Origin: a virus
Virus record (IMG/VR): IMGVR_UViG_3300010401_000808
Coordinates: 1-49,613 of that record
Strand: one strand, 5' to 3'
Length of the DNA: 49,613 nt
The position numbers were made by a program, and so were the translations under genes. This document shows positions 3,576-47,489 of the stretch, one piece after another. Each line of letters starts with the position of its first letter. Within the stretch, counting starts at the first letter, position 1. The notes beneath the pieces are model-generated. The model saw only the letters and a program-made list of their open reading frames with translations. It had not been told where the DNA came from and did not search any database.

Positions 3576-3579
3576 ATGA
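3448..3579 (+). other. Doubtful 43-codon frame upstream of the Kelch gene
   Basis: An ATG-started frame ends in an ATGA-type overlap with the Kelch start (stop 3577-3579, Kelch ATG 3576-3578). The peptide contains IRRIAEALGVTAILVSS, which faintly resembles the part of TolB-like regulator proteins that reads I.ELGV.AVL.G. It could be a worn remnant of such a gene or a small leader peptide coupled to the Kelch gene. I see no ribosome binding site. Confidence 0.2.
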
Positions 3580-6284
3580 AACTGTCAGTACGAGGCCTTG
3601 CTTCGATCCTTGCCATTGCGTGGGTGTTCAGTAGCGCAACTCCAATCCATGCTCAGGGTACCGCGTTCACTTATCAGGGCAGACTCAGCGACGGCGGCAC
3701 TCCGGCAAACGGGAACTATGACTTTCAATTCAAATTGTTCGACACTGCGACTGTAGGCACAGGTGGGCAGCAAGGTTCCATCGTTGCCCTCCCCAACCAG
3801 ACGGTGACCAGTGGCTTGTTCACCGTGACGCTCGATTTCGGCGCCGCGCCGTTTCCCGGCGCCGACCGTTTCCTGGAGATTGCCGTCAAACCGGTAGCGG
3901 CGGGAGCGTTTACGACGCTGGTTCCCAGACAGCCCATCCATTCCACGCCATACGCCCTTCGCAGTCTCGGAGCGCTTGCAGCCGACGGACTGTCGCTGGC
4001 ATGCGTGAGCTGTGTGACAAGCGGCCAGATCGCCAGCGTCAACGCAAGCGCCATAGTGGGAGCGCTTCCTTCAGGGAGTGTTGGAGCTGCGCAACTCGCG
4101 GCTGGCGCGGCGGCGGCGAACCTCAATGTCGCCAATCAAAGCGGCGTGGCCAGCGGCGGGCTGGTGTTGTCCGACACTGAAAACACTGCCCTCCTCAATG
4201 CCGGCTATATCCGGATTGGCGTGACAGCGACCTCCGACGTATGGCTGATGCGCGCCAATGGGACCTCCCCGTCCGCGCGCGGCTACCAATCTGCGGTGTG
4301 GACGGGCAGCGAGATGATTGTCTGGGGCGGATACAGCGGCGTCTTTTCCAACGACGGCGGGCGCTACAATCCCGCCGGTAACAGTTGGACGGCAATCACC
4401 ACCACGGACGCGCCATCCGCGCGCTACTATCACTCGGGCGTATGGACGGGCAGCGAAATGATCGTTTGGGGCGGATTCGGCAGTAGCGCATTCGTGAACG
4501 ATGGCGGGCGCTACAATCCCGCGGCCAACAGTTGGACGGCCGTCACCACCACTGGCGCACCCGCCGCGAGGTACTACCACACGGCGGTATGGACGGGCAC
4601 TGAGATGATCATCTGGGGCGGAAACAGCGGGAGCTCCCGGAACGACGGTGGGCGTTACAATCCCGCCAGCAACACTTGGACAGCCGTCACCGCCCTCGGA
4701 GCGCCCGCCGCGCGCTACTTGCATACGGCGGTATGGACGGGCGCTGAGATGATCATCTGGGGCGGATCCAACCCCAGCTATCTGAGCGATGGCGGCCGCT
4801 ATAATCCCGCCGGCAACAGCTGGACTTCCGTTACGGCCACAGGCGCGCCCAGCGCGCGGTACTTGCACACGTCGGTTTGGACGGGCACCGAGATGATCGT
4901 CTGGGGTGGAGACTTTGGCGGCTCTTTGAACGATGGGGGGCGCTATAACCCGGCCAGTAACAGTTGGACGGCCGTCACCACCACAGGCGCGCCCACCGCG
5001 CGCACCTTGCACACAGCGGTATGGACCGGCAGCGAGATGATTGTCTGGGGCGGAGTCAACCCCGGCTATCTGAACACCGGCGGGCGCTACAATCCTGCCG
5101 GTAACAGTTGGACAGCCATGACCACTACCGGAGCGCCCGCCGCGCGCGACTATCACGCGGCGGTATGGACGGGCAGCGAAATGATTGTCTGGGGCGGATC
5201 CAACCCCGTTTTTCTGAGCGATGGCGGGCGCTACAATCCCGCCGGCAACAGTTGGACGGCTATCACCACCGCCGGCGTGCCCTCGGCGCGGTCCTTGCAC
5301 ACGGCGGTGTGGACGGGCAGCGAGATGATCGTCTGGGGCGGATCCAGTGCCAGCCAGTTGAACGACGGGGGGCGTTACAATCCGGCAGGGAATATTTGGA
5401 CAGCGGTGAGCACCATGGGCGCGCCCTCGGGGCGCAGTTCGCACACGGCAGTGTGGACGGGCAGCGAGATGGTTATCTGGGGCGGATACAACGGCTCCCC
5501 TTTGAACGACGGAGCGCGGTACAGTCCGGCGGGGAACAGTTGGACGGCGGTGAGCGGCGTGGGGGCGCCCTCGGGGCGCAGTTCGCACACGGCAGTGTGG
5601 ACGGGCACCGAGATGATCGTCTGGGGCGGATACGGCGGCGTCAGCCAGTTGAACGACGGGGGGCGGTACAATCCGGCAGGGAACATTTGGACAACGGTGA
5701 GCACCATTGGGGCGCCCTCGGCGCGCAGCTCGCACACGGCAGTGTGGACGGGCAGCGAGATGATCGTCTGGGGCGGAAACAACGCCAGCTATTTGAATGA
5801 CGGGGGACGGTACAATCCGGCGGGGAACAGTTGGGTGGCGGTGAGCGGGACGGGGGCGCCCTCGATACGTTATGCGCACACGGCGGTGTGGACAGGCAGC
5901 GAGATGATCGTCTGGGGCGGATTCAATGGGAGCTATTTGAACAGCGGGGGGCGGTACAGTCCGGCGGGGAACAGTTGGACGGCGGTAAGCGGCACGGGGG
6001 CACCCTCGGTACGCTATGCGCACACGGCGGTGTGGACGGGCAGCGAGATGATTGTCTGGGGCGGATACAACGGCAACTACTTGAACGACGGGGGACGGTA
6101 TAGTCCGGCGGGGAACAGTTGGGCGGCCGTAAGCGCCGCGGGGGCGCCCTCGGCACGTTATTCTCATACGTCAGCGTGGACAGGCAGCGAGATGATCGTC
6201 TGGGGTGGATTCGGCGGTAGCTTTTTGAACGACACGTTTAGCTACACACCCGGCCGCTTGATGTATCTCTATCGGCGGCCATGA
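3576..6284 (+). CDS. Secreted Kelch-repeat protein with 14 near-identical repeats
   Basis: An AGGAG site eight bases before the ATG supports this start. Residues 1-26 are a Sec signal peptide ending TPIHAQ. Residues 28-130 form an N-terminal domain beginning FTYQGRLSDGGTPANG and ending HSTPYALRS, a module seen at the N-terminus of many secreted proteins of environmental bacteria. From about residue 235 there are 14 tandem repeats of 47-48 residues. Each has the Kelch pattern HTAVWTGSEMIVWGG, then NDGGRYNPAGNSWTAV. Fourteen blades would make two seven-bladed propellers. The protein is probably exported to the periplasm or cell surface; ligand unknown. The repeats are also very similar as DNA (about 141-144 bases each), most strikingly the later ones, which points to recent unequal exchange or gene conversion. 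Confidence 0.85.
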   Translation: MKLSVRGLASILAIAWVFSSATPIHAQGTAFTYQGRLSDGGTPANGNYDFQFKLFDTATVGTGGQQGSIVALPNQTVTSGLFTVTLDFGAAPFPGADRFLEIAVKPVAAGAFTTLVPRQPIHSTPYALRSLGALAADGLSLACVSCVTSGQIASVNASAIVGALPSGSVGAAQLAAGAAAANLNVANQSGVASGGLVLSDTENTALLNAGYIRIGVTATSDVWLMRANGTSPSARGYQSAVWTGSEMIVWGGYSGVFSNDGGRYNPAGNSWTAITTTDAPSARYYHSGVWTGSEMIVWGGFGSSAFVNDGGRYNPAANSWTAVTTTGAPAARYYHTAVWTGTEMIIWGGNSGSSRNDGGRYNPASNTWTAVTALGAPAARYLHTAVWTGAEMIIWGGSNPSYLSDGGRYNPAGNSWTSVTATGAPSARYLHTSVWTGTEMIVWGGDFGGSLNDGGRYNPASNSWTAVTTTGAPTARTLHTAVWTGSEMIVWGGVNPGYLNTGGRYNPAGNSWTAMTTTGAPAARDYHAAVWTGSEMIVWGGSNPVFLSDGGRYNPAGNSWTAITTAGVPSARSLHTAVWTGSEMIVWGGSSASQLNDGGRYNPAGNIWTAVSTMGAPSGRSSHTAVWTGSEMVIWGGYNGSPLNDGARYSPAGNSWTAVSGVGAPSGRSSHTAVWTGTEMIVWGGYGGVSQLNDGGRYNPAGNIWTTVSTIGAPSARSSHTAVWTGSEMIVWGGNNASYLNDGGRYNPAGNSWVAVSGTGAPSIRYAHTAVWTGSEMIVWGGFNGSYLNSGGRYSPAGNSWTAVSGTGAPSVRYAHTAVWTGSEMIVWGGYNGNYLNDGGRYSPAGNSWAAVSAAGAPSARYSHTSAWTGSEMIVWGGFGGSFLNDTFSYTPGRLMYLYRRP
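4281..6240 (+). repeat. Tandem array of 14 Kelch-coding units of about 141-144 bp
   Basis: The segment GTGTGGACGGGCAGCGAGAT and close variants recur at regular spacing through the array. Units between about 5380 and 6180 are nearly identical; those between 4281 and 5380 differ more at third codon positions. The array is in frame throughout. It is likely to be unstable in copy number and hard to assemble from short reads. Confidence 0.85.
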
Positions 6285-8905: not shown

Positions 8906-9049
8906 CTAAACTTTCTTGCGCCGCGGACGATTCCAGTACGGCGACTTGCAGGTTTTGCTGGCGCACACTTTCGGCGGCTCCTGCTGGCGCGGGAACCAGG
9001 TATAGCCACAGCGCAGACACTTCAGCGTCGGTAGAGATATCGCTTTCAT
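8906..9049 (-). CDS. Zinc-ribbon microprotein (47 aa)
   Basis: Sequence order: LKCLRCGYTWFPR, then VCASKTCKSPYWNRPRRKKV. Two CxxC-type pairs plus the SPYWNRPR tail match a common prokaryotic zinc-ribbon type. Its ATG overlaps the stop of the HicB gene (TGATG), so it forms a third gene of the HicAB operon. The longer frame in another register (8892-9074) has no such features and was discarded. Confidence 0.7.
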   Translation of the reverse strand: MKAISLPTLKCLRCGYTWFPRQQEPPKVCASKTCKSPYWNRPRRKKV

Positions 9050-9279
9050 CAGGCGACCTCGACGGCGACCTCAACTTCCTTCATGATTGACGACGGCTCA
9101 GGAATCGTCTCGCCATCCTCCCGCATTCCCTTGATGTGAAACTCGATCGCTTCACGAATGGATTCTTGCGTCTCTTCGACGGTGTCCCCGACGGCGACGC
9201 AACCCGGAAGATCCGGAACATATGCGGAATAGTTCCCCTCCGCCTTTTCGATCACAACAAAATATTTCACTGATTTCAC
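9049..9279 (-). CDS. hicB: HicB-family antitoxin
   Basis: 76 aa from a GTG with a strong GGAGG six bases upstream. It shows the HicB partial RNase-H-like fold: YFVVIEKAEGNYSAYVPDLPGCVAVGDTVEETQESIREAIEFHI. It lacks the added C-terminal HTH or ribbon-helix-helix domain that some HicB proteins have. It would neutralise the HicA mRNA interferase. It lies 16 bases after hicA and is coupled to the downstream zinc-ribbon gene, which might supply the missing DNA-binding part; that is inference. Confidence 0.9.
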   Translation of the reverse strand: MKSVKYFVVIEKAEGNYSAYVPDLPGCVAVGDTVEETQESIREAIEFHIKGMREDGETIPEPSSIMKEVEVAVEVA

Positions 9280-9295
9280 CGCGAACCTCCGTTTT

Positions 9296-9481
9296 CTATT
9301 TCAAGCCTGCTTGCTTCAAGATGCTGTTCAGCGTTCCAATCGCGAGATCCTTTCCGGGCTTACCCGGTATGGTCACGCGGCCTTTTTTGGTGGCATGTTT
9401 GAACTGGCGATGACTGCCTTCCTGTACGACGAAAAACCACCCGTCCGCCTCGACCATCTTGATTACGTCTCTAACCTTCAT
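9296..9481 (-). CDS. hicA: HicA-family mRNA interferase toxin
   Basis: 61 aa with the dsRBD-like HicA fold. The catalytic His is in GSHRQFKH (about residue 23), followed by the strand GRVTIPGKPGKDLAIGTLNSILKQAGL. HicA toxins cleave mRNA; in a prophage this pair may stabilise the element or act against competing phages. The ATG lies seven bases after a TATACT -10 box, so the mRNA is probably leaderless. Confidence 0.9.
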   Translation of the reverse strand: MKVRDVIKMVEADGWFFVVQEGSHRQFKHATKKGRVTIPGKPGKDLAIGTLNSILKQAGLK

Positions 9482-9488
9482 ACTTACT

Positions 9489-9516
9489 AGTATATACCCA
9501 TGGGTATATAGTGCAA
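9489..9516 (-). promoter_or_regulatory. hicAB promoter with perfect 20-bp palindromic operator
   Basis: TATATACCCATGGGTATATA (9491-9510) is a perfect palindrome. On the minus strand TTGCAC (9516-9511) and TATACT (9494-9489), 16 bases apart, flank and overlap it, so a bound repressor would block RNA polymerase. This is the usual arrangement for autoregulated toxin-antitoxin operons. Confidence 0.8.
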
Positions 9517-9688: not shown

Positions 9689-9856
9689 ATGCAGCCGAAT
9701 AGTCAGAAGAAAACGGAGTGGGAAGCTCTGGTGCGGAAACTGCGGCGCGTGTTTGACCGTGGATCAGAACTACAACGGAAGGCCGTCAGCTTCTACATCA
9801 ACCATCTTTACGAGCGCGTTTCGCGTGCCATTCGTTCAAAAACTCGGCCATCATGA
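9689..9856 (+). CDS. Possible small basic protein (55 aa)
   Basis: Begins MQPNSQKKTEWEALVRKLRRVF and continues as a charged amphipathic helix rich in Arg. Composition is protein-like, but there is no clear ribosome binding site, and the 3' end overlaps the convergent XRE gene by about 60 bases. Either a real small gene or a chance frame. Confidence 0.35.
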   Translation: MQPNSQKKTEWEALVRKLRRVFDRGSELQRKAVSFYINHLYERVSRAIRSKTRPS

Positions 9857-10232
9857 GCCGCACGCCCGGAGCTTTTCTCGGCTGAGCCAGCGCCCAGTCG
9901 AGGCCGTCATGGGCCGCGCGGTCTTCCTTCACGACTTGTTTGTCCTGGCGGTCCATGAGGGGCGCAAAGAAACGGGCGAGGTTTGTATCGGATGCTCCGA
10001 GCCAGTTGTGCAGCATTTCAACAGTGGGGCTCGAATCGCCGTCTTCTAGTTTGTTGATGTGACGGGAACTAACCTTTGCCGCGGCCGCAAAGTTTTCCTT
10101 GGTCAAGCCTGTACCGCGCCGAAGCGCAGCGAGCCGCAGCCGTATCCAATCGCGCAATCCTTCGTCCGTCATACCAACCAGCTTCCCTGCCGGACGGCCA
10201 TCATCGCACAGCGACGCCCGGCGTAGGTCCAT
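9798..10232 (-). CDS. XRE-family regulator, candidate lysogeny repressor
   Basis: 144 aa from the ATG at 10230-10232, chosen because GGGAAGGA lies eight bases upstream; the frame reaches 10298. Residues about 30-85 (LRLAALRRGTGLTKENFAAAAKVSSRHINKLEDGDSSPTVEMLHNWL) are an XRE HTH. The C-terminal half (ARFFAPLMDRQDKQVVKEDRAAHDGLDWAL) is an unrecognised helical domain without LexA/CI-type Ser-Lys protease motifs. It is divergent from the early operon, as a lysogeny repressor would be. Relief by RecA-driven self-cleavage is not suggested by the sequence. Confidence 0.75.
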   Translation of the reverse strand: MDLRRASLCDDGRPAGKLVGMTDEGLRDWIRLRLAALRRGTGLTKENFAAAAKVSSRHINKLEDGDSSPTVEMLHNWLGASDTNLARFFAPLMDRQDKQVVKEDRAAHDGLDWALAQPRKAPGVRLMMAEFLNEWHAKRARKDG

Positions 10233-10277
10233 CCGGTTTTCCTTCCCGAATAGCCGTCTGCATTTTCCTACATTGGG

Positions 10278-10327
10278 GTGCACTTTTAGTCTTGACACTT
10301 AGTGCACGCAGATGTACTTTAGTGCAC
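10278..10327 (+). promoter_or_regulatory. Early promoter with three GTGCAC operator boxes
   Basis: TTGACA (10292-10297), 17 bases, TACTTT (10315-10320). GTGCAC boxes lie at about 10278-10283, inside the spacer (AGTGCAC), and just after the -10 (AGTGCAC, 10321-10327). From -35 to the last box it matches the 8674-8709 promoter at 31 of 36 positions, on the opposite strand. It drives the rightward early operon. Confidence 0.8.
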
Positions 10328-10377
10328 ATTGACAAGAGAAATTCCGATCAGGTCGCAGATCGAAATGGAGCACGCAA

Positions 10378-10578
10378 ATGACAGACACACGACGGGCGCT
10401 AATGACGGAACTTCTCGAACTCCAAAACAGCATCGACTATCAGGACGTAGTGACCATCAGCGCGTTCATGCCGACAGACGCGGAACTTGCCAAGCACGTC
10501 GAAGCGGTACGCGGTCAGAACGCACGGCGCGATGCGCGAAAGGAAAGGTCGCTGGTGGAGAGCGCGAAATGCGTATGA
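10378..10578 (+). CDS. Early small hypothetical protein
   Basis: 66 aa, acidic to neutral, mostly helical (MTELLELQNSIDYQDVVTISAFMPTDAELAKHVEAV). GGAG about nine bases upstream supports the ATG. First gene with a ribosome binding site after the early promoter. It overlaps the next gene by 10 bases. No family recognised. Confidence 0.6.
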   Translation: MTDTRRALMTELLELQNSIDYQDVVTISAFMPTDAELAKHVEAVRGQNARRDARKERSLVESAKCV

Positions 10579-10868
10579 GAACTTCCGGAAGCACTTCTCA
10601 AACGATTCTCGGACTGACGCTGGCCGAGATCCAGCAGCAATGGAGTTGCGGGCACCGCTTCGAGTGCGACCCATTAAACGAGGACGTGTGGCGTGTGAGC
10701 GTCGGCGTGCAGGCGTACTACTTCCCGAGCGCAGCGCGGGCGGCGGAATTCTACGCGGACACTCAGACCGAGGAGTTGGTCACGCTCACGATGCCACGCG
10801 GTCAGGTCTGGGGTACGCGGCAAGGGTCGGCGCCGCCGAACTCAGACCCAAAAAGTTTCTATCCCTAA
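10569..10868 (+). CDS. Early hypothetical protein carrying repeat copy 1
   Basis: 99 aa from the ATG at 10569; the same frame is open further upstream but only as a shadow of the previous gene. A compact alpha/beta layout: LTLAEIQQQWSCGHRFECDPLNEDVWRVSVGVQAYYFPSAARAAEFYADTQTEELV. Function unknown. Its first codons contain the TTCCGGAA repeat (10577-10604), read here as RTSGSTSQT. Confidence 0.55.
   Translation: MRMRTSGSTSQTILGLTLAEIQQQWSCGHRFECDPLNEDVWRVSVGVQAYYFPSAARAAEFYADTQTEELVTLTMPRGQVWGTRQGSAPPNSDPKSFYP
10577..10604. repeat. TTCCGGAA-type early repeat, copy 1
   Basis: Contains GAACTTCCGGAAGCACTTC followed by TCAAACG. Shared with copies at 11218, 14536 and 14608. It lies in coding sequence in a different reading frame from the copies at 11218 and 14536. 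Confidence 0.6.
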
Positions 10869-10931
10869 AAACGAAAGCGGCGGAACGCTTACGACGTCCC
10901 GCCGCTGGCTCTTATCAACGGTCAATTAACT

Positions 10932-11207
10932 TTGGAGATTAGCACACCAACCATGCCAACCGGAGCCATGAACAATGCAAACCGCAAACGACCCTGGATC
11001 ACACACCGGGACGTCAACCGTCAAAACTTTACCGACGCCGGAAAGTTGGCCCGCGAACAGGACAGGCCCATAGCGGACTGCCCGTCACTCTCGCGGTACT
11101 TTGACGAGCCACGTGCAACCTACTTAGCCAAGTGTTGGATCTCAGGATGGAACGCCAGGGACCGAGAATTGACCGAGCCACGGTATGCGATGAAAGGAGC
11201 CGATTAG
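10932..11207 (+). CDS. RMF/CrpP-like small protein
   Basis: Up to 91 aa; internal ATGs at 10953 and 10968 are other possible starts. The pattern GKLAREQDRPIADCPSL followed by RATYLAKCWISGWNARDRE fits the ribosome modulation factor/CrpP family found in many phages: one Cys-Pro turn, then an aromatic-rich GW helix. RMF binds 70S ribosomes and CrpP-type proteins have been linked to other roles, so the function here is open. Confidence 0.55.
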   Translation: MEISTPTMPTGAMNNANRKRPWITHRDVNRQNFTDAGKLAREQDRPIADCPSLSRYFDEPRATYLAKCWISGWNARDRELTEPRYAMKGAD

Positions 11208-11444
11208 ATGGCAGTCCGAGAAGTTCCAGAAGCACTTCCGGAAGTGATCGCAGAACTGGGTAGACTCACCGCGATTTTCACCGAAGCCGACTACGACCGG
11301 CTCGAAAATGCCCTGGTGCTGCGCAGCTATGTTCTGGGCTGGACGGGCGACCCGTTGAAGCAGCCAGCCGAAACCGTGCTCGCGTGCGCCCGCCAGGTCC
11401 TCGCCGAAAAAACCGCTGCCGTGCAACAGGAGATCCCGAAATGA
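11208..11444 (+). CDS. Early hypothetical protein carrying repeat copy 2
   Basis: 78 aa, all helical (FTEADYDRLENALVLRSYVLGW). The ATG directly follows the stop of the RMF-like gene, and its 3' end overlaps the HNH gene by ATGA. Residues 4-13 (REVPEALPEV) are encoded by repeat copy 2. No family recognised. Confidence 0.6.
   Translation: MAVREVPEALPEVIAELGRLTAIFTEADYDRLENALVLRSYVLGWTGDPLKQPAETVLACARQVLAEKTAAVQQEIPK
11218..11246. repeat. TTCCGGAA-type early repeat, copy 2
   Basis: GTTCCAGAAGCACTTCCGGA and flanks. It is the same core as copy 3 and read there in the same frame (PEALPE), but copies 1 and 4 are read in other frames. Confidence 0.6.
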
Positions 11445-11767
11445 CGGGCCAAGTTTTACCCTTTCCAAAACCCGTCCGCATGGAGGACGAGGACTACAAG
11501 CGTTTCATCCGCCGGCAACCTTGCGTGGTCTCAGGTGTGCAATCCGAAGCGCACCATGTAGTCCCCGAAGGCGGCGGCAAGGTCGGCTCAAAAGTGTCGG
11601 ACTACCGGACAGTCCCTCTCGGATTCAGATTGCACAACGAGTATCACCGGATGGGACGGAAGGCGTTCGAACTGAAATACAACATCGACCTCGACCTGGT
11701 TCAGATTCAGTACCTGGAAACGTACCTGTCGGCACTTCGCGACGGAGAGAACTTAGGAGCACGATGA
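11441..11767 (+). CDS. DUF968-like HNH-type nuclease
   Basis: 108 aa from the ATG at 11441 (ATGA overlap). Key segments: CVVSGVQSEAHHVVPEGGGKVGSKVSDYRTVPL, then HNEYHRMGRKAFELKYNIDL. The AHHV and H...H spacing fits the HNH-like fold of phage recombination proteins of the DUF968/NinB-neighbour type. Likely role: cutting DNA branches during phage replication or recombination. This is assignment by motif only. Confidence 0.75.
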   Translation: MTGQVLPFPKPVRMEDEDYKRFIRRQPCVVSGVQSEAHHVVPEGGGKVGSKVSDYRTVPLGFRLHNEYHRMGRKAFELKYNIDLDLVQIQYLETYLSALRDGENLGAR

Positions 11768-12072
11768 GCGCCGAGATGGTTTGCGATTTCTGCCACGCCG
11801 CAAACCCGCCGCATCAGATCCCCTGCTTGACGTTCGTCGTCGATCCCGTGGTGCCGATGCCTATCGGCTTGCGCTCACGTGACGACTGGTGGGCCTGCGA
11901 TGCGTGCTTTGCGTTGATAGGCGCGGACGACCAAGCCGCGCTTGTGAAGCGGGCGCTCGACTGCTATTTCGGGCGCCATCCGGACGAAAGCAACCAGAGG
12001 GATATCGTCGAAGCGCAGGTGCGGCGGGCCTATGAACAGTTCTGGGAGCGGAGGATAAGGGTTCAGGAATGA
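11764..12072 (+). CDS. Zinc-ribbon protein
   Basis: 102 aa from the ATG at 11764 (ATGA overlap). CDFCHA at residues 7-12 and CDACFA in the middle form a split CxxC...CxxC zinc site. The C-terminal half is a helix (VKRALDCYFGRHP, AQVRRAYEQFWERR). Function unknown. Confidence 0.65.
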   Translation: MSAEMVCDFCHAANPPHQIPCLTFVVDPVVPMPIGLRSRDDWWACDACFALIGADDQAALVKRALDCYFGRHPDESNQRDIVEAQVRRAYEQFWERRIRVQE

Positions 12073-12500
12073 GCGACGACTACATCGAGGGATTCGAGCG
12101 GCTCTTCGCAGAGTATCAGCCGAAGTACTACCGTCTCGACGGCTCACTGTACCCGCCCGGGCTGGAAGGTTTGCTCGCATGGGGGCGCGATCTTGAAGAC
12201 ACGCGCGGACGCATGATCGCGCAGGACTGCCTCTGGAACGGCTTATGGCTGTCGACCGTCTGGTTAGGTCTCGATCACCGCTATGGAAAAGGCCCGCCGC
12301 TGATCTTCGAGACGATGGCGTTCAACCGCATAACGGACGACCACGGCGATACCTGGTGTGAACGCTGGTCGACGCTCGACGACGCGCAAGTCGGCCACCT
12401 GTACCTGAAGCACTACCTGGGGAGCCTGCGGTTTACGTTGAAGCTTTGGTTGGAATTGATCTGGGCGGAGGTGCGAGGCGATGAAGAAGGAATTCAGTGA
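12069..12500 (+). CDS. Conserved phage-type protein, unknown function
   Basis: 143 aa, ATGA-coupled. Contains WLSTVWLGLDHRYGKGPPLIFETMAFN, a pattern I associate with a widespread phage protein family of unknown function, and an aromatic-rich C-terminus. It overlaps the following gene by 20 bases. Confidence 0.65.
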   Translation: MSDDYIEGFERLFAEYQPKYYRLDGSLYPPGLEGLLAWGRDLEDTRGRMIAQDCLWNGLWLSTVWLGLDHRYGKGPPLIFETMAFNRITDDHGDTWCERWSTLDDAQVGHLYLKHYLGSLRFTLKLWLELIWAEVRGDEEGIQ

Positions 12501-12681
12501 AGTAGCCGGCGAGGCACTCGAAGAGGCCCGCGAAAAGTTCAAATCGTACTTCCCCAACACATGGATAGAGCATTCGGACGCCGTCAACATGGCGCTGGGC
12601 CTGTTCTCTGGAATTGTGATGCGCCGGATGAACGACGAGCCGGATCCGGATCCTGTTCGCAAAGGAGAACACCAGGAATGA
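12481..12681 (+). CDS. Early small helical protein
   Basis: 66 aa: MKKEFSEVAGEALEEAREKF, then a hydrophobic stretch (AVNMALGLFSGIVM) and an acidic tail. The overlap with the preceding gene and the ATGA overlap with the next support it. No family recognised. Confidence 0.55.
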   Translation: MKKEFSEVAGEALEEAREKFKSYFPNTWIEHSDAVNMALGLFSGIVMRRMNDEPDPDPVRKGEHQE

Positions 12682-13175
12682 ACAGAATGAGAGTGACAGA
12701 TAACCCGCCAAGCTGGCGCAAACTCGCCGAAATCAATTTGAAGTGCGAGCGTGACATGCAGCGATACCACCACCCACCCTCAACGGGAATCATCCTGAGT
12801 TGGCGCGGCGAGCTGCGCGTGGGCTGCATCCAGCACCCCGTCGACATCGATTTCCCGGCCATCGTTTTCATCTCGATTACGAGTAAGTATCGGGATCCGG
12901 AATTCGCGCGGGCATACCGCAACATCGATCCGGGCCGTTTAGAACTGAGGGCGGATCCGCGCCTCGATCTGACCGGCAACTTTCACGTCCTGCACCGTGA
13001 CGGCAACTTCCTCACGTTCATGACGCCGGAAGAGACCCGGGCCTCGCAGAAAAGCGACCTGCTGAGAATGCTCGTTCAAGTCCAGCCACGCGACGACGGC
13101 CGCATCGATCTGATACCCGTGACCGAGCGTAAGTACGAACAGGAACCGCCGATGCCTTCGGAGAAGATTCAGTGA
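12678..13175 (+). CDS. Early hypothetical protein (165 aa)
   Basis: ATGA-coupled start at 12678. Mixed alpha/beta protein with a WRKLAEINLKCERDMQRYHHP segment near the N-terminus and a beta-rich middle. No motif recognised. It ends in a GTGA overlap with the next gene. Confidence 0.6.
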   Translation: MNRMRVTDNPPSWRKLAEINLKCERDMQRYHHPPSTGIILSWRGELRVGCIQHPVDIDFPAIVFISITSKYRDPEFARAYRNIDPGRLELRADPRLDLTGNFHVLHRDGNFLTFMTPEETRASQKSDLLRMLVQVQPRDDGRIDLIPVTERKYEQEPPMPSEKIQ

Positions 13176-13606
13176 CCCGCTGTCCCTATTGCGACACTCC
13201 CGAACATCCCGGCCAGAACTGCGATCGCGAATCCTTGAAGCTGGCAAACGCCCGGCTGCGCGAGGAACTGCGAGTGCGTGACCTTGAACTGCAGGCAAGA
13301 CAGAAACTCGACGCCCCGGGCGTGGTCATGGTCTCGTCGCTGGTCTCCCATAAAACCGGCAAGCCGCGCGTCGATATCCAGTTGGGCGAAATCCACACGC
13401 AGATGTCAGTCGACGCCGCTGTTGACGTTGCGCGAAACCTCTTCGAAGTCTGCGCGGGATCGTATGCCGATGGGTTCCTCATGAACTTCCTAAAGGTGAA
13501 GCTGGAGCAACCGCCCGGAGTGTACGCGCAGGTCCTTAACGACTTTCGCGAGTACCGTGCCGAACTGGCTGAAGAATTTAAGAGAGACCAGACGGAGGAA
13601 TCATGA
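13172..13606 (+). CDS. Zinc-finger-headed protein
   Basis: 144 aa from a GTG in a GTGA overlap. Begins with CPYCDTPEHPGQNC, a compact zinc knuckle, followed by a coiled-coil helix (LKLANARLREELRVRDLELQA) and an alpha/beta domain. It could be a nucleic-acid-binding accessory protein. No family recognised. Confidence 0.6.
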   Translation: MTRCPYCDTPEHPGQNCDRESLKLANARLREELRVRDLELQARQKLDAPGVVMVSSLVSHKTGKPRVDIQLGEIHTQMSVDAAVDVARNLFEVCAGSYADGFLMNFLKVKLEQPPGVYAQVLNDFREYRAELAEEFKRDQTEES

Positions 13607-13872
13607 ACATCGGCAAGCTCGACGCGAAACCGAAATGCCCGCAGTGCGGAGAGACTCTCGACGGCTTCGCGTGCGTCACTGATCCGGACTTCGTGCCGGA
13701 CGTCGGCTGTCTCACGGTCTGTAGCTACTGCTTCACGCCACTGGAATTCGTAGAAGGAATGAAGCTCCGCAGGCTCAACATTGCTGAACTTCCCGAGGAT
13801 GCCCAGCACGACATCCGGTCGGCCCTGAGAATCGCAAGAGCCGTGGAGCATATGAAACGGAGCGAGAATTGA
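13603..13872 (+). CDS. Zinc-ribbon protein
   Basis: 89 aa, ATGA-coupled. CPQCGETLDGFAC and CSYCFTPLEF form a four-Cys ribbon, followed by LRRLNIAELPEDAQHDIRSALRIAR, a pattern seen in many phage ribbon proteins of unknown role. It ends in a TTGA overlap with the next gene. Confidence 0.7.
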   Translation: MNIGKLDAKPKCPQCGETLDGFACVTDPDFVPDVGCLTVCSYCFTPLEFVEGMKLRRLNIAELPEDAQHDIRSALRIARAVEHMKRSEN

Positions 13873-14297
13873 GCCGCGAAATCCTCCCGACTCACCACTG
13901 CTTCGACGACGCGCTGGAGCTGCTGGCGATCCTGTATTGCAGCCGCTTCCGCTACTACAGCCTTCGCCTGGTCCACGCGATCTGCAAAGCGCCTGACGGA
14001 TCTGGAGCCTACGCGCACGCCTACGTTTCGGACGTCGAATCCGGCGAGAGTCAGTTTGTTGGATTGATTGAAGGGCAGAAGGTCATAGTCATGGTTTCGA
14101 CCGACGAATACGAAGCGGGGCTGGAGATCATCGAGGCCACGCGCTATACGGTCGAAGAGGCCCTTGCGGAAAATCTCCGCTCGGAGAATTACGGGCCTTG
14201 GATCGAGCGGTACCGGGCACTCTGCAGCAACTCGCGACGCGTCTATCGAGAGCCCGACTCCGCAACCTCTGAACCCTTCACTCCCCCTGGGGCGTAA
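13869..14297 (+). CDS. Early hypothetical protein with TTG start
   Basis: 142 aa from a TTG in a TTGA overlap. The motif HHCFDDALELLA near the N-terminus is followed by a beta-rich domain (HAICKAPDGSGAYAHAYV, KVIVMVSTDEYEAGL). Similar small proteins occur in other phage early regions, but I cannot name a function. Confidence 0.6.
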   Translation: MSREILPTHHCFDDALELLAILYCSRFRYYSLRLVHAICKAPDGSGAYAHAYVSDVESGESQFVGLIEGQKVIVMVSTDEYEAGLEIIEATRYTVEEALAENLRSENYGPWIERYRALCSNSRRVYREPDSATSEPFTPPGA

Positions 14298-14303
14298 AAC
14301 TTC

Positions 14304-14786
14304 ATGACACAAAAACTGGATCTAGGACAGTGGCTCACCAAACAGCAAGCCTCAGAAGCCATCGGCGTGAGTTCCAAGACCGTCGAAAAACTCGCCACAG
14401 AGGGCAAGCTGCAATCCGCGAAACGCCCACAACCCGGGCGGCCTGACGCAGCGGTCTATCACCCGGACGACGTCCAGCGAGCCGCAGAAGAACGCCGCAA
14501 GCAACCCGGAGCATTCGTCGTCCAGAGAGCAGTATCAGAACTTCCAGAAGCACTTCCGGAACGCTTCTCAAAGCCGATGGGTGAGTTCTACCAGCACGCC
14601 GCCGAGGCACTTCGCGAAGTGTTCCGGAAGCCTTCTCAAACCCTGTTTCTGTCCGTCAAGGAAGCCTCAGAAGTTACCGGCCTCACACAGCGATACATCC
14701 ACGAACAGATTGAGCAGGGAACACTACAGGCTATTCAGGACGGACGGCGTACACGGATTCGGAGGAAGGATTTGGAGGAGCTCTAA
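14304..14786 (+). CDS. Protein with two excisionase-type HTH domains
   Basis: 160 aa. The N-terminal domain (residues 8-60: WLTKQQASEAIGVSSKTVEKL, then YHPDDVQRA) and the C-terminal domain (113-160: LSVKEASEVTGLTQRYIHEQI, then RTRIRRKDLEEL) are both MerR/HTH_17 type. The linker between them is encoded by repeat copies 3 and 4. Two DNA-binding heads on one chain suggest a protein that bridges or spaces two sites. Because its own gene holds two of the repeats, it could be the protein that binds them, as iteron-binding initiators do. That link is inference. Confidence 0.7.
   Translation: MTQKLDLGQWLTKQQASEAIGVSSKTVEKLATEGKLQSAKRPQPGRPDAAVYHPDDVQRAAEERRKQPGAFVVQRAVSELPEALPERFSKPMGEFYQHAAEALREVFRKPSQTLFLSVKEASEVTGLTQRYIHEQIEQGTLQAIQDGRRTRIRRKDLEEL
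14536..14573. repeat. TTCCGGAA-type early repeat, copy 3
   Basis: GAACTTCCAGAAGCACTTCC then GGAACGCTTCTCAAAG; it combines both halves seen separately in copies 1 and 2. Confidence 0.6.
14608..14641. repeat. TTCCGGAA-type early repeat, copy 4
   Basis: GCACTTCGCGAAGTGTTCCG then GAAGCCTTCTCAAAC. It shares TTCCGGAAGC and CTTCTCAAA with copy 1 and is read in a third frame (REVFRKPSQT). Confidence 0.55.
14757..14782 (+). repeat. 26-bp direct repeat, upstream copy
   Basis: Starts ATTCGGAGGAAGG and ends GGAGGAGCT. Identical to 14981-15006. Here it encodes the end of the two-HTH protein and contains the Shine-Dalgarno sequence of the 14787 gene. Confidence 0.85.
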
Positions 14787-14972
14787 ATGGCGACAGTTGT
14801 GGTCTGCGACATCTGCAAAGACGACGAACACTTGCGCGCGACGACGGGGCGCTACGTCGTCACGGTCACCAAGTATCTGAAAGAGGAAAAGGGAGTCTCC
14901 ACAACGCAAGACACCGAGTACGACGTCTGCGGCGCTTGCATGCAAAAGCTTAGGCAGGCAGGCCTGAAATGA
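14787..14972 (+). CDS. Zinc-ribbon microprotein
   Basis: 61 aa: CDICKDD near the N-terminus and CGACMQKLRQAGLK at the end, bracketing a small beta sheet. The GGAGGAG of the 26-bp repeat, eight bases upstream, is its ribosome binding site. No further family assigned. Confidence 0.7.
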   Translation: MATVVVCDICKDDEHLRATTGRYVVTVTKYLKEEKGVSTTQDTEYDVCGACMQKLRQAGLK

Positions 14973-15010
14973 AGACGCGAATTCGGAGGAAGGATTTGGA
15001 GGAGCTATGA
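14969..15010 (+). CDS. 13-codon mini-ORF duplicating the tail of the two-HTH protein
   Basis: ATGA-coupled at both ends, encoding MKTRIRRKDLEEL. The last 11 residues equal the C-terminus of the 14304-14786 protein because the DNA is the second copy of the 26-bp repeat. It probably serves to carry ribosomes and a Shine-Dalgarno sequence to the 15007 gene rather than to make a useful peptide. Confidence 0.5.
   Translation: MKTRIRRKDLEEL
14981..15006 (+). repeat. 26-bp direct repeat, downstream copy
   Basis: Identical to 14757-14782. It supplies the GGAGGAG ribosome binding site for the 15007 gene. Confidence 0.85.
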
Positions 15011-15285
15011 AGACGAAAAGCGGGAAGGTTGCGAAGACGGAAGGTTTGAAGGTCCAAGTAGTGGGGCCTCCGAAGAAGCTGGCATCGGTAGCCCGTGTGG
15101 TTGCGGAGATGATGACGCTGATCCGCCTGGAGCCGACGTGCATCAAATGCGGCTGCACCTGGGACAACGCCTGCGAGGGCGGCTGCTCGTGGACGTTTCT
15201 AAACAAGAAGACAAACGAGGGGCTGTGCTCGGCGTGCTTCGAGAATCTGAACGTGATGGCGGTGAGGGCGGCGAATGGCCGTTGA
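15007..15285 (+). CDS. Phage zinc-ribbon protein (CxxCGCTxDxACxGGCSW type)
   Basis: 92 aa. CIKCGCTWDNACEGGCSWT and CSACFENL make a multi-Cys zinc module widespread in tailed phages; the function is not known to me. A basic N-terminal tail (MKTKSGKVAKTEGLKVQ) could touch nucleic acid. It overlaps the next gene by 11 bases. Confidence 0.75.
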   Translation: MKTKSGKVAKTEGLKVQVVGPPKKLASVARVVAEMMTLIRLEPTCIKCGCTWDNACEGGCSWTFLNKKTNEGLCSACFENLNVMAVRAANGR

Positions 15286-15868
15286 AGCCTATCCGCTCTA
15301 CTGGCCGGAGGGCCGGACCCGCTCAAAGTCCCACGTGAGCAATCCGGGTTTCAAGATGCCGCTTGCCGCTGCACGGGATACCTTGCTGGCAGAACTGCAG
15401 CGGCTGGGCGCAAAGAAGATCATCATCTCGACCAACATCCCGCTCCGCAACGATGGACTCTTCCGCGCCGATATCGGCAACGCTCCGGACCCAGGAGTCG
15501 CGGTCTACTTCGAGCACAAGGCAAAACCCATGTGCTTCGCCTGCGACAAGTACGGCCACGTGCGCGAAAACGTCCGCGCGATCGCGCTGACCATCGAAGC
15601 CCTGCGCGGGATAGAACGCTGGGGCAGTTCCGACATGATGGAACGGGCGTTCCGCGGCTTCACGGCAATCCCGGAACGGGCAGGTGAATACTGGCGCGAC
15701 GTCTTCGGCTTCGACAAAGACCAGAAAGTCACCGAGGCCGATATCGAGCGAGAGTTCAAACGGCTGGCGCACGTCGCACACCCGGACAAAGGCGGAACGC
15801 TCGAACAATGGCAATTGCTCAACAATGCCCGGATGAATGCGCGGAAAGATTTGGGGTTCGCGCGATGA
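15275..15868 (+). CDS. J-domain (DnaJ-like) phage protein
   Basis: 197 aa. The N-terminus (AYPLYWPEGRTRSKSHVSNPGF) is typical of phage and plasmid J-domain proteins. The J-domain is C-terminal (about 150-197), with the HPD motif in VAHPDKGGTLEQWQLLNNARM. J-domains stimulate host DnaK ATPase, so the likely role is recruiting DnaK to a phage process such as replication start or assembly. The middle contains a single CFAC pair. Confidence 0.8.
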   Translation: MAVEAYPLYWPEGRTRSKSHVSNPGFKMPLAAARDTLLAELQRLGAKKIIISTNIPLRNDGLFRADIGNAPDPGVAVYFEHKAKPMCFACDKYGHVRENVRAIALTIEALRGIERWGSSDMMERAFRGFTAIPERAGEYWRDVFGFDKDQKVTEADIEREFKRLAHVAHPDKGGTLEQWQLLNNARMNARKDLGFAR

Positions 15869-20346: not shown

Positions 20347-22007
20347 TACTTTTTCGGCTCCTCATAGCCGTTCTTCTTGAGGAAGTCGATTGCCTGCTGG
20401 CGTGTCAGGTTGGGGGTGTTGTTCCGCATGTTGGACTGGATCAGCGCCTCGGTCATCGCTCCCCTGGATCCACCGGCAGCCGGTGCCGCCGCCGCGTCCG
20501 CTGCCGGATTCATTCCCGGCTGTCCATACACTCCCATCTGCTTCAAGAGCGTGTCGCGCTTCCGCTCGATGAACGGCAACACGACGTCTTGAATCTGCGA
20601 CCGGAAAGCCTCCGGAGAGAGATCCGGGCGCGTCATATCGAGGCCCATCGCTTTCGACATGTCGGTCGCGGAGCCAAAGCCCAATGCGCCGGACAGTTCG
20701 TCGGCAAAGGCCGTTCTCGCTGTTTCGAGGTTTGCGTAATGCTTGCTGCCGAGCTCAAACCCACCTTTGATGATGAGCTTGTTCAGCGCGGTGATTCCCG
20801 TCCGTGACGCTTCATCGGACAGTCTCAGCAAATCCGGTACGGCCTGCTTCACGTTGTCCATCGAGGCGAGCTGCTGCTGAACTTTCGGACTGGACGCCAG
20901 CTTGTAGCCCATTTCAAATTGGGCCACGTTGAAATTAGGGTTGAGCTCTTGAGCCTTTTCGTAGATCGCGGTTTTCATTCCCGAGCTGGCCGCGGCACGT
21001 CCGTACATCTGATTGAAGTTGGTGAACGGCAGTTTTCCATAGGCCAGGTCCTGCGCGATTTTGAATTCTTTAGAGCCCCCGCCGATTTCCGGAACATTGG
21101 CCGCGGCCGCGCGTCCTGCAGCGGCTGTGTCGAGCTTCTGCTGCTGTTTGTATTTGTCGAAGCCCAGACGGTCGGGTCCAAACTTCTTTGCTTCCGGACT
21201 CTTCAGGTAGTCGTCATAGGTTTGCTCTTCAAACGACGTGTTTTTTGGCGGCGCGTTCTTCGCCTTTTGGATTTCTCCAAGCTGCGTGATGAGCGGCCCG
21301 GCGGCTTCTTTCGGGACACCCTTCATACCTGCGAATCCAATCTCCGGAATGGGTGGGATATCGATCAGGGCATCTTTCAGGGCGAGGTTGCGCTTGAACG
21401 TCTCCGCCGCCTGAGTCGCCGCCGTATTCTGCTCCAGGGATCGCGGCTGAACTGTCGTCGTCGGTCCGCCCGGGACAGATGAACGCACATCCACCGAAGG
21501 CAATGGCAACACCGTCGGAGCTACTTCCGCTCCGGGAATGCCTGCTTGATAAAGAGGCGCTGCGGGACGTCCTGCAGGTACGGCAGTGTCGGCCTGTGCT
21601 CCACCGGGTGTCGGTGCCAAACTCATGCCGCCAAACTCGGTCTGCTGCCCTTCGAGCAGCTTTAACCGGTCTTTGTCCGCCGCGTTTTGGGCGGTTGCTT
21701 GATCTTGCCGTGCTGCTGCGGCTCCCTGGTAGGTCTTCGTGATGTTAGGGTCGCGCCATGGCGTACTGAGTACCTCGGCGATCGCCGCGTCCGCGTCGCC
21801 TGAGTGCTTCTGGAAAATCTGTTGAACCTTCGCCCATTCCTGGTCGGACTGCGCTTTCGAGTCCTGCGCTTCCTGGATCTTCATCGCGTTGATTTGGTTC
21901 GATTGCGTCATTCCCTGGAGCTTGAGCGCGTTCGATTGCCGTTCGACAGGATCAGGGAAGTCAAACTTCCGCGGGTTGGCGATTTGCTGGAGAAGTGCTG
22001 CGTTCAT
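20346..22007 (-). CDS. Virion-associated helical protein, candidate ejection protein
   Basis: 553 aa from the ATG at 22007 with AAGGGAAA upstream. The N-terminal third is coiled-coil-like (QSNALKLQGMTQSNQINAMKIQEAQDSKAQSDQEW). The middle is Gln/Ala/Pro-rich, and the C-terminal half is helical. It probably acts with its two neighbours in DNA injection. No enzyme motif seen. Confidence 0.55.
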   Translation of the reverse strand: MNAALLQQIANPRKFDFPDPVERQSNALKLQGMTQSNQINAMKIQEAQDSKAQSDQEWAKVQQIFQKHSGDADAAIAEVLSTPWRDPNITKTYQGAAAARQDQATAQNAADKDRLKLLEGQQTEFGGMSLAPTPGGAQADTAVPAGRPAAPLYQAGIPGAEVAPTVLPLPSVDVRSSVPGGPTTTVQPRSLEQNTAATQAAETFKRNLALKDALIDIPPIPEIGFAGMKGVPKEAAGPLITQLGEIQKAKNAPPKNTSFEEQTYDDYLKSPEAKKFGPDRLGFDKYKQQQKLDTAAAGRAAAANVPEIGGGSKEFKIAQDLAYGKLPFTNFNQMYGRAAASSGMKTAIYEKAQELNPNFNVAQFEMGYKLASSPKVQQQLASMDNVKQAVPDLLRLSDEASRTGITALNKLIIKGGFELGSKHYANLETARTAFADELSGALGFGSATDMSKAMGLDMTRPDLSPEAFRSQIQDVVLPFIERKRDTLLKQMGVYGQPGMNPAADAAAAPAAGGSRGAMTEALIQSNMRNNTPNLTRQQAIDFLKKNGYEEPKK

Positions 22008-46855: not shown

Positions 46856-46878
46856 TGATATAGTGTCCAGAATGGACA
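46856..46878 (+). promoter_or_regulatory. Integrase promoter (extended -10) and start-codon palindrome
   Basis: TGATATAGT (46856-46864) is an extended -10. TGTCCAGAATGGACA (46864-46878) has perfect 6-bp arms and covers the start codon. RNA would begin at about the ATG, so a repressor on the palindrome would block transcription start. Confidence 0.6.
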
Positions 46879-47489
46879 AGAAACCGGCTAAACAGCTTCC
46901 TTACTCCCTCCTCGGGAAGGACGGACAACGGAAATACCTAATCCCTGAGGAGCGCGCACGCTTCATCAGGGCCTGTGAGGTCGCTGAGGATCTGACTGTG
47001 CGCACGTTCGGGCTGATGCTGGCCCACGGGGGGTGCAGGATCACAGAGGCGTTGGAGATGACGGCGGACCGTGTCGACTTCGCCGATGGGTCTGTGGTCT
47101 TTGAGAGCCTCAAGAAACGCGTGCGGGGCATTTTCCGCTCGGTGCCGGTACCGCCCGCCTTCCTGGATGCGCTGAACATGGTTCACGACGTGCGCATCAC
47201 GCAGCGGCGGAATGACCGCGGAAAGGGCGTCCATTTGTGGCCGTGGTCCAGGTCGACCGGTTGGGTCCGGATCCAGGAGTTGATGGCCGCCGCGAAGATT
47301 GAAGGGTTACAGGCGACACCGAAGGGCTTACGGCATGCGTTTGCAATCCACGCGATCGGCCGCAACGTGCCGCTTAACGTTGTCCAGGAGCTGCTGGGGC
47401 ATTCCGATATGAAGACGACGGCGATCTATGCCGCGTTCCAGGGGGCTGAGAAACGAAAGATCGTCGAGCGGATGTGGACGGACGATTAA
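46872..47489 (+). CDS. int: Short tyrosine recombinase (phage integrase, core only)
   Basis: 205 aa from the ATG at 46872, with a GTG at 46863 as an alternative start. Catalytic set: Arg in GGCRITEALEM, LRHAFAIHA (box II), GHSDMKTTAIY with the His and nucleophile Tyr. The first box II His is Lys (TPKGLRHAF), a known variant in some short recombinases. There is almost no N-terminal arm- or core-binding domain; full-length integrases are about 300-400 aa. Next to the late promoter and pointing away from it. It may be the enzyme that used the tRNA-Arg site, but this is not shown. Confidence 0.85.
   Translation: MDKKPAKQLPYSLLGKDGQRKYLIPEERARFIRACEVAEDLTVRTFGLMLAHGGCRITEALEMTADRVDFADGSVVFESLKKRVRGIFRSVPVPPAFLDALNMVHDVRITQRRNDRGKGVHLWPWSRSTGWVRIQELMAAAKIEGLQATPKGLRHAFAIHAIGRNVPLNVVQELLGHSDMKTTAIYAAFQGAEKRKIVERMWTDD

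Follow-up and report, generated by a model that had tools for sequence, protein, structure and literature searches.

Short repeats that serve as protein-binding sites are described within phage genes and in several regulatory systems. In lambda and the Stx phages, the iterons lie in the middle of gene O (PMC7466680), and in SPP1, gene 38 carries direct repeats (oriL) that are bound by gp38, which also binds a distant oriR (PMC6316719). Phage 186 Apl recognizes direct repeats placed 10–11 bp apart and requires three adjacent operators in vitro (PMC7498355), while BldC multimerizes head to tail on direct repeats (PMC5859096). Here, four clusters of short repeats, C1 to C4, were analyzed in the early region of a virus record of 49,613 bases, the whole of which constitutes the window. 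These clusters look like landing sites for a protein that binds DNA, the likeliest being the phage's replication starter or an early-gene regulator.

Family scans using Pfam and PHROG assigned minus-strand genes to a GP7-type capsid protein, a P22-like portal and a terminase, and also identified an integrase gene. Because structural genes of this kind occur together with an integrase gene, the phage is read as temperate and podovirus-like; relatives of its capsid protein, at about 50% identity, include phiV10 and BcepC6B. The early genes run rightward from approximately 10.3 kb. The features on which the analysis rests are as follows.

9798..10298, minus strand: CI-like repressor gene (Pfam/PHROG)
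10569..10868, plus strand: small early gene without a family match, whose first codons overlap C1
10574..10613, plus strand: C1, TATGAGAA-C-TTCCGGAA-GCAC-TTCTCAAA-CGA-TTCTCGGA, over the start of gene 10569-10868
11208..11444, plus strand: small early gene without a family match, whose first codons overlap C2
11215..11255, plus strand: C2, TCCGAGAA-G-TTCCAGAA-GCAC-TTCCGGAA-GTGA-TCGCAGAA, with degenerate outer units, just inside the start of gene 11208-11444
14304..14786, plus strand: two-winged-HTH gene (HTH_17 / MerR-Xis type), 160 aa, candidate binder of the arrays
14533..14572, plus strand: C3, TATCAGAA-C-TTCCAGAA-GCAC-TTCCGGAA-CGC-TTCTCAAA, within the part of gene 14304-14786 that encodes the interdomain linker
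14611..14640, plus strand: C4, TTCGCGAA-GTG-TTCCGGAA-GCC-TTCTCAAA, within the same linker-coding part of gene 14304-14786
46863-47489: integrase gene (family scan)

Several other elements of the record were noted. Three GTGCAC-centred sites (10278, 10303 and 10323, spanning 10278-10328) were read by eye in the gap that separates the CI-like gene from the early genes; they are probably immunity (CI) operators and are set apart from the TTCCGGAA units. The early intergenic gap at 10869-10952, almost exactly halfway from C1 to C2, holds a GC-rich hairpin and a lower-GC stretch. A Kelch-repeat protein (3576-6284) is encoded by a tandem array of a 144-bp unit in about 13 copies, and two small minus-strand genes at ~9020-9490 resemble, by eye, a HicB/HicA toxin-antitoxin pair. 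The J-domain-like protein at 15275-15868 carries an HPDKGG motif and matches phrog_9210, and related proteins of cyanophages and actinobacteriophages carry the annotation molecular chaperone or DnaJ-like chaperonin.

Repeat units and their non-random arrangement

Each cluster comprises two to four units of 8 bp with the consensus TTCYNRAA, most commonly in the forms TTCCGGAA, TTCCAGAA, TTCGCGAA and TTCTCAAA. All units share one orientation and are mostly spaced at 11–12 bp, approximately one helical turn. They start at 10583, 10595 and, for a weaker unit, 10606 in C1; at 11224 and 11236 in C2; at 14542, 14554 and 14565 in C3; and at 14611, 14622 and 14633 in C4, with one degenerate unit just 5' of the main units in each of C1 to C3. 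C3 and C4 together place six units within 100 bp. Longer blocks recur as well: TTCCAGAAGCACTTCCGGAA has exact copies at 11224 and 14542, and copies of CTTCTCAAA are found at 10594, 14564 and 14632.

The sequence-only reading had placed shared blocks at four sites in the early genes, and both the sites and the blocks proved genuine; counts and self-comparison exceed their nulls. The word TTCCGGAA occurs at 10583, 11236, 14554 and 14622, with one stray copy at 21087; against these five occurrences, 1.2 were expected with the palindrome counted once, and none of 100 shuffles reached five. In the self-comparison, 10573-10610 against 14532-14569 and 11206-11243 against 14524-14561 each matched at 32 of 38 positions (84%, score 26), whereas the top score in 200 Markov-3 nulls was 22. 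The paired-unit pattern TTC[CTG]N[AG]AA-N3-4-TTC[CTG]N[AG]AA occurs six times on the plus strand of the window, every time inside C1 to C4, against 0–1 in the nulls with both strands counted; this pattern was devised after the data had been seen, and of all the tests the self-comparison and the held-out matrix carry the least bias. In that hold-out, a matrix built from three clusters returned the fourth as the top plus-strand place of the whole window each time. Whole-window triple scores were 46, 40, 35 and 31 for the clusters, 10 for the next plus-strand place and at most 22 in the nulls. The possibility raised beforehand that shuffled sequence of the same composition might yield such repeats equally often was thereby answered in the negative. 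These comparisons confirm the repeat as a real, non-random feature at the DNA level; its function we infer.

An earlier argument, that the copies are translated in three frames and that selection must therefore act on the DNA, holds in part. The word TTCCGGAA is indeed read in three frames (one in C1, another in C2 and C3, the third in C4), which places the constraint or shared ancestry in the DNA; the second and third copies, however, share a frame. Synonymous recoding of the early genes yielded 0–2 unit pairs against the six observed and, with the different frames, favors a DNA-level origin, but one of constraint or copying rather than of selection alone. Among the clusters, codon choice is unusually rare in C1 only. 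A repeat conserved purely for its peptide, an EALPE-like helix with no role for the DNA, is hardly credible: C2, C3 and part of C4 do encode similar EAL-E peptides in one frame, but C1 and the TTCCGGAA of C4 encode other peptides, and recoding that preserves the protein rarely restores the unit pairs.

Copying itself deserves closer attention. C2 and C3 share, besides their frame (AVREVPEALPE / AVSELPEALPE), a longer similarity, and part of their likeness may be due to descent. In its full form, the copying explanation holds that illegitimate recombination carried short pieces of the HTH-gene linker into other early genes, where they serve no function. It draws on the common frame of C2 and C3 with 18 nt of weaker upstream similarity, and on the 3' end of the two-HTH gene, which is likewise duplicated at 14975-15011 with a tiny ORF, MKTRIRRKDLEEL. 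Against this, internal periodicity is present in all four clusters, the clusters cross-match in shifted registers, and centres vary within conserved arms beside near-random downstream flanks. Across clusters, the unit arms (TTC/GAA) are conserved at 11–12 of 12 positions and the centres between them, as in TTCCAGAA, TTCCGGAA and TTCGCGAA, agree at 0–4 of 4, while the 30 nt downstream are near random. Conserved arms, variable centres and near-random flanks look like protein-contact positions rather than the outcome of blind copying, and we consider a functionless relic improbable.

The duplicate at the end of the two-HTH gene is a separate observation. Positions 14751-14787 and 14975-15011 form a 37-nt near-duplicate, 26 nt of it exact; the second copy stands upstream of gene 15007-15285, to which it provides a GGAGG ribosome-binding site, and it is classed as a recombination relic.

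The same DNA could also act through its folding, with C3 and C4 forming a long hairpin in the early transcript or in single-stranded DNA. The C3–C4 stretch does fold better than shuffles (z = -2.35 for plus-strand RNA, -3.0 for minus-strand RNA and -2.9 for DNA), but two clusters of palindromic units pair automatically, folding of C1 and C2 on their own is no better than that of shuffled sequence, and the early region has no Rfam match. A structural role of this kind appears very unlikely.

Searches for relatives and arrays in other viral contigs

A host-wide or mobile repeat was considered and rejected: the exact repeat had two unrelated matches in viral contigs and 38 scattered matches across 257 Gb of genomes, where no taxon stood out clearly. 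No close relative of the phage was found, and the relatives recovered share only the J-domain gene (15275-15868) or the terminase. Loci sharing either gene showed no motif beyond the control, and those with the J-domain gene lacked the early genes. Among 396 genomes of one phylum, itself a guess, the search for related prophages returned one distant capsid match. Searching solved structures by sequence gave nothing useful.

A generalized triple pattern identified 115 stretches in viral contigs, many of which are plain coding repeats. Arrays of TTCNNGAA at 11–12 bp spacing were found in initiator-like genes of unrelated contigs (L162, L110, L146/L112, L143, L165, L196, L197, L172, L190 and L133), although several of these share one homologous stretch and not all are independent. 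The genes at L162, L110, L146/L112 and L143 match PHROG DnaD-like loaders or initiators, and at L105, TTCCGGAA units at 12 bp lie just upstream of an initiator-like gene. A control pattern with its halves swapped returned 101 stretches, and the initiator family phrog_1701 was matched by 4 of 80 ORFs with control arrays against 6 of 112 for the true pattern. Since control arrays also match initiator families, the association belongs to tandem arrays generally and not to the TTCNNGAA word; a direct comparison gave 11 against 2 loci but was biased by queries drawn from the target set. For the array-bearing ORFs compared, a fair conclusion is that tandem arrays in helical phase within phage genes appear to point to initiator genes time and again, irrespective of the repeated word. 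The parallel with other contigs thus supports the architecture rather than a shared motif.

Two further sets of arrays, at L121/L125 (one contig) and L154, have six perfect 11-bp units beside TTATCCACA words and an AT-rich tract. They were dropped as origin evidence, the L154 gene being a transposase, and each looks like a transposon end or a replication site. At L054:5770-7172, TAACATATACGATAAGGGGAATAGAT and shortened versions of this dispersed repeat occur in several copies upstream of the J-domain gene, in what looks like a repeated leader element.

Candidate replication origin or regulator array

The two clusters placed earlier within the gene for a two-HTH protein, C3 and C4, both lie in its interdomain linker. 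The encoded protein (14304-14786) matches Pfam HTH_17 in two stretches (8.8e-17), and its PHROG matches are excisionase/MerR families. An AlphaFold2 model made without an alignment contains both wHTH domains at low confidence (mean pLDDT 59); the best-looking partial matches of this model in Foldseek were Pukovnik Xis and BldC, with E-values that are not significant. Searches for relatives of the protein returned nothing beyond weak partial HTH matches, and comparison with the array-associated initiators of other contigs gave no detectable homology (E 0.64).

Three functions had been proposed for the repeats: an iteron-type origin, a partition site and a regulator array. An iteron or regulator array is still the best reading, whereas a partition site (parS/parC) is not supported, as ParA/ParB- or ParM/ParR-type genes are absent from the ORFs scanned with Pfam and PHROG and an integrase is present. 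Both surviving readings pass through the same step, which we consider likely, namely that protein subunits bind the phased units cooperatively.

Our preferred reading, to which we give slightly less than even odds, is that C1 to C4 are iteron-type arrays for an oligomerising DNA-binding protein, most plausibly the product of 14304-14786, with C3 and C4 together probably forming the origin. The spacing of mostly 11–12 bp places the units on one side of the helix, where neighboring units could be occupied by cooperating subunits. C3 and C4 would then constitute the main nucleoprotein site and a probable replication origin inside the linker-coding sequence of its own initiator, while C1 and C2 would be satellite sites by two early start codons, where occupancy could restrain early transcription or the amount of free protein. 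The fuller version, in which an excisionase-type double-wHTH protein is the replication initiator, has its iterons in its own linker and couples replication to early expression through the start-codon satellites, is unlikely.

The origin reading draws on the unit structure, the phasing, the absence of such clusters elsewhere in the window and the position of C3 and C4 between the two DNA-binding domains of one protein. It also draws on the conserved arms, the differing reading frames, the rare codons of C1, the arrays in initiator-like genes of other contigs and the precedents of lambda, the Stx phages and SPP1. Several tandem short units are present in C3 and C4, within four clusters overall, and the arrays lie inside a DNA-binding gene, albeit one whose homology to known initiators was not detected. 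On the other side, C1 and C2 lie 3–4 kb away, and most other contigs checked carry a single array locus. There is no AT-rich unwinding element next to C3/C4, and the GC content of the 100 bp that follow C4 is 50%; DnaA boxes show no excess and none lies near the clusters; and no helicase or loader gene was recognized in the phage. The cumulative GC skew that had been suggested as a check reaches its minimum at 14702, but with a bootstrap range of 9.5–14.9 kb this position is not robust and localizes no origin.

Alternatively, the clusters could be operators like those of Apl, Cox, Xis or BldC, on which a two-wHTH protein binds tandem repeats, bends DNA and represses the early genes and its own gene with no part in an origin. 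Such a role fits the HTH_17/excisionase-type domains of this small, element-encoded wHTH protein (14304-14786, excisionase PHROGs), periods of 11–12 bp that set the repeats about one helical turn apart, clusters of approximately three units that match the three-operator requirement of Apl, and the position of two clusters at gene starts. However, clusters are missing both around the integrase gene (46863-47489), attP itself not having been identified, and from the region taken to hold the early promoter and operators (~10.29 kb, searched over 10.26–10.34 kb); the units are largely palindromic, whereas BldC and Apl sites are asymmetric; and every cluster is inside coding sequence rather than in an intergenic promoter region. 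On balance, an exclusively regulatory function is possible but doubtful.

Comparison with described systems

If the arrays work as proposed under the iteron reading or as operators, they would mark the place from which this orphan phage begins to replicate or governs its early genes. They would also allow origins to be found from sequence alone in phages whose replication genes are unrecognizable, by a search for palindromic units in helical phase within the linker-coding part of a gene for a DNA-binding protein; the viral contig scan suggests that unrelated phages repeatedly have such arrays in their initiator genes.

Like the lambdoid origin (ori lambda), the locus has several iteron-like units placed centrally in a gene whose product is a DNA-binding protein; unlike it, the units are of 8 bp at 11–12 bp spacing, there is no AT-rich tract, two extra clusters lie 3–4 kb away and the protein is not O-like. 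SPP1 oriL/oriR with gp38 offers the same combination of direct repeats inside a gene, there the initiator gene, and a further site elsewhere, but in SPP1 the origins come with an AT-rich unwinding element and with known replication genes, and neither was found here.

With the operators of phage 186 Apl, P2 Cox and lambda Xis, the clusters share tandem repeats about one turn apart, approximately three per cluster, and a winged-HTH protein; they differ in their nearly palindromic units, two wHTH domains per chain and the lack of clusters near the integrase or in the presumed promoter region. Streptomyces BldC is likewise an HTH_17 (MerR-like) protein that binds direct repeats cooperatively, but it is a single-domain protein of 68 residues with an asymmetric repeat, AATTXXXX(C). 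Mycobacteriophage L5-type stoperators are also dispersed sites in one orientation; they are, however, single asymmetric sites of 13 bp, more than 20 per genome, in promoters and short intergenic spaces, as opposed to four tandem clusters inside early genes. The arrays are best grouped with iteron or operator arrays that lie within the early genes of phages, a class of which other phages already provide examples, and what is unusual here is the dispersal of the clusters and the double-wHTH gene that hosts two of them.
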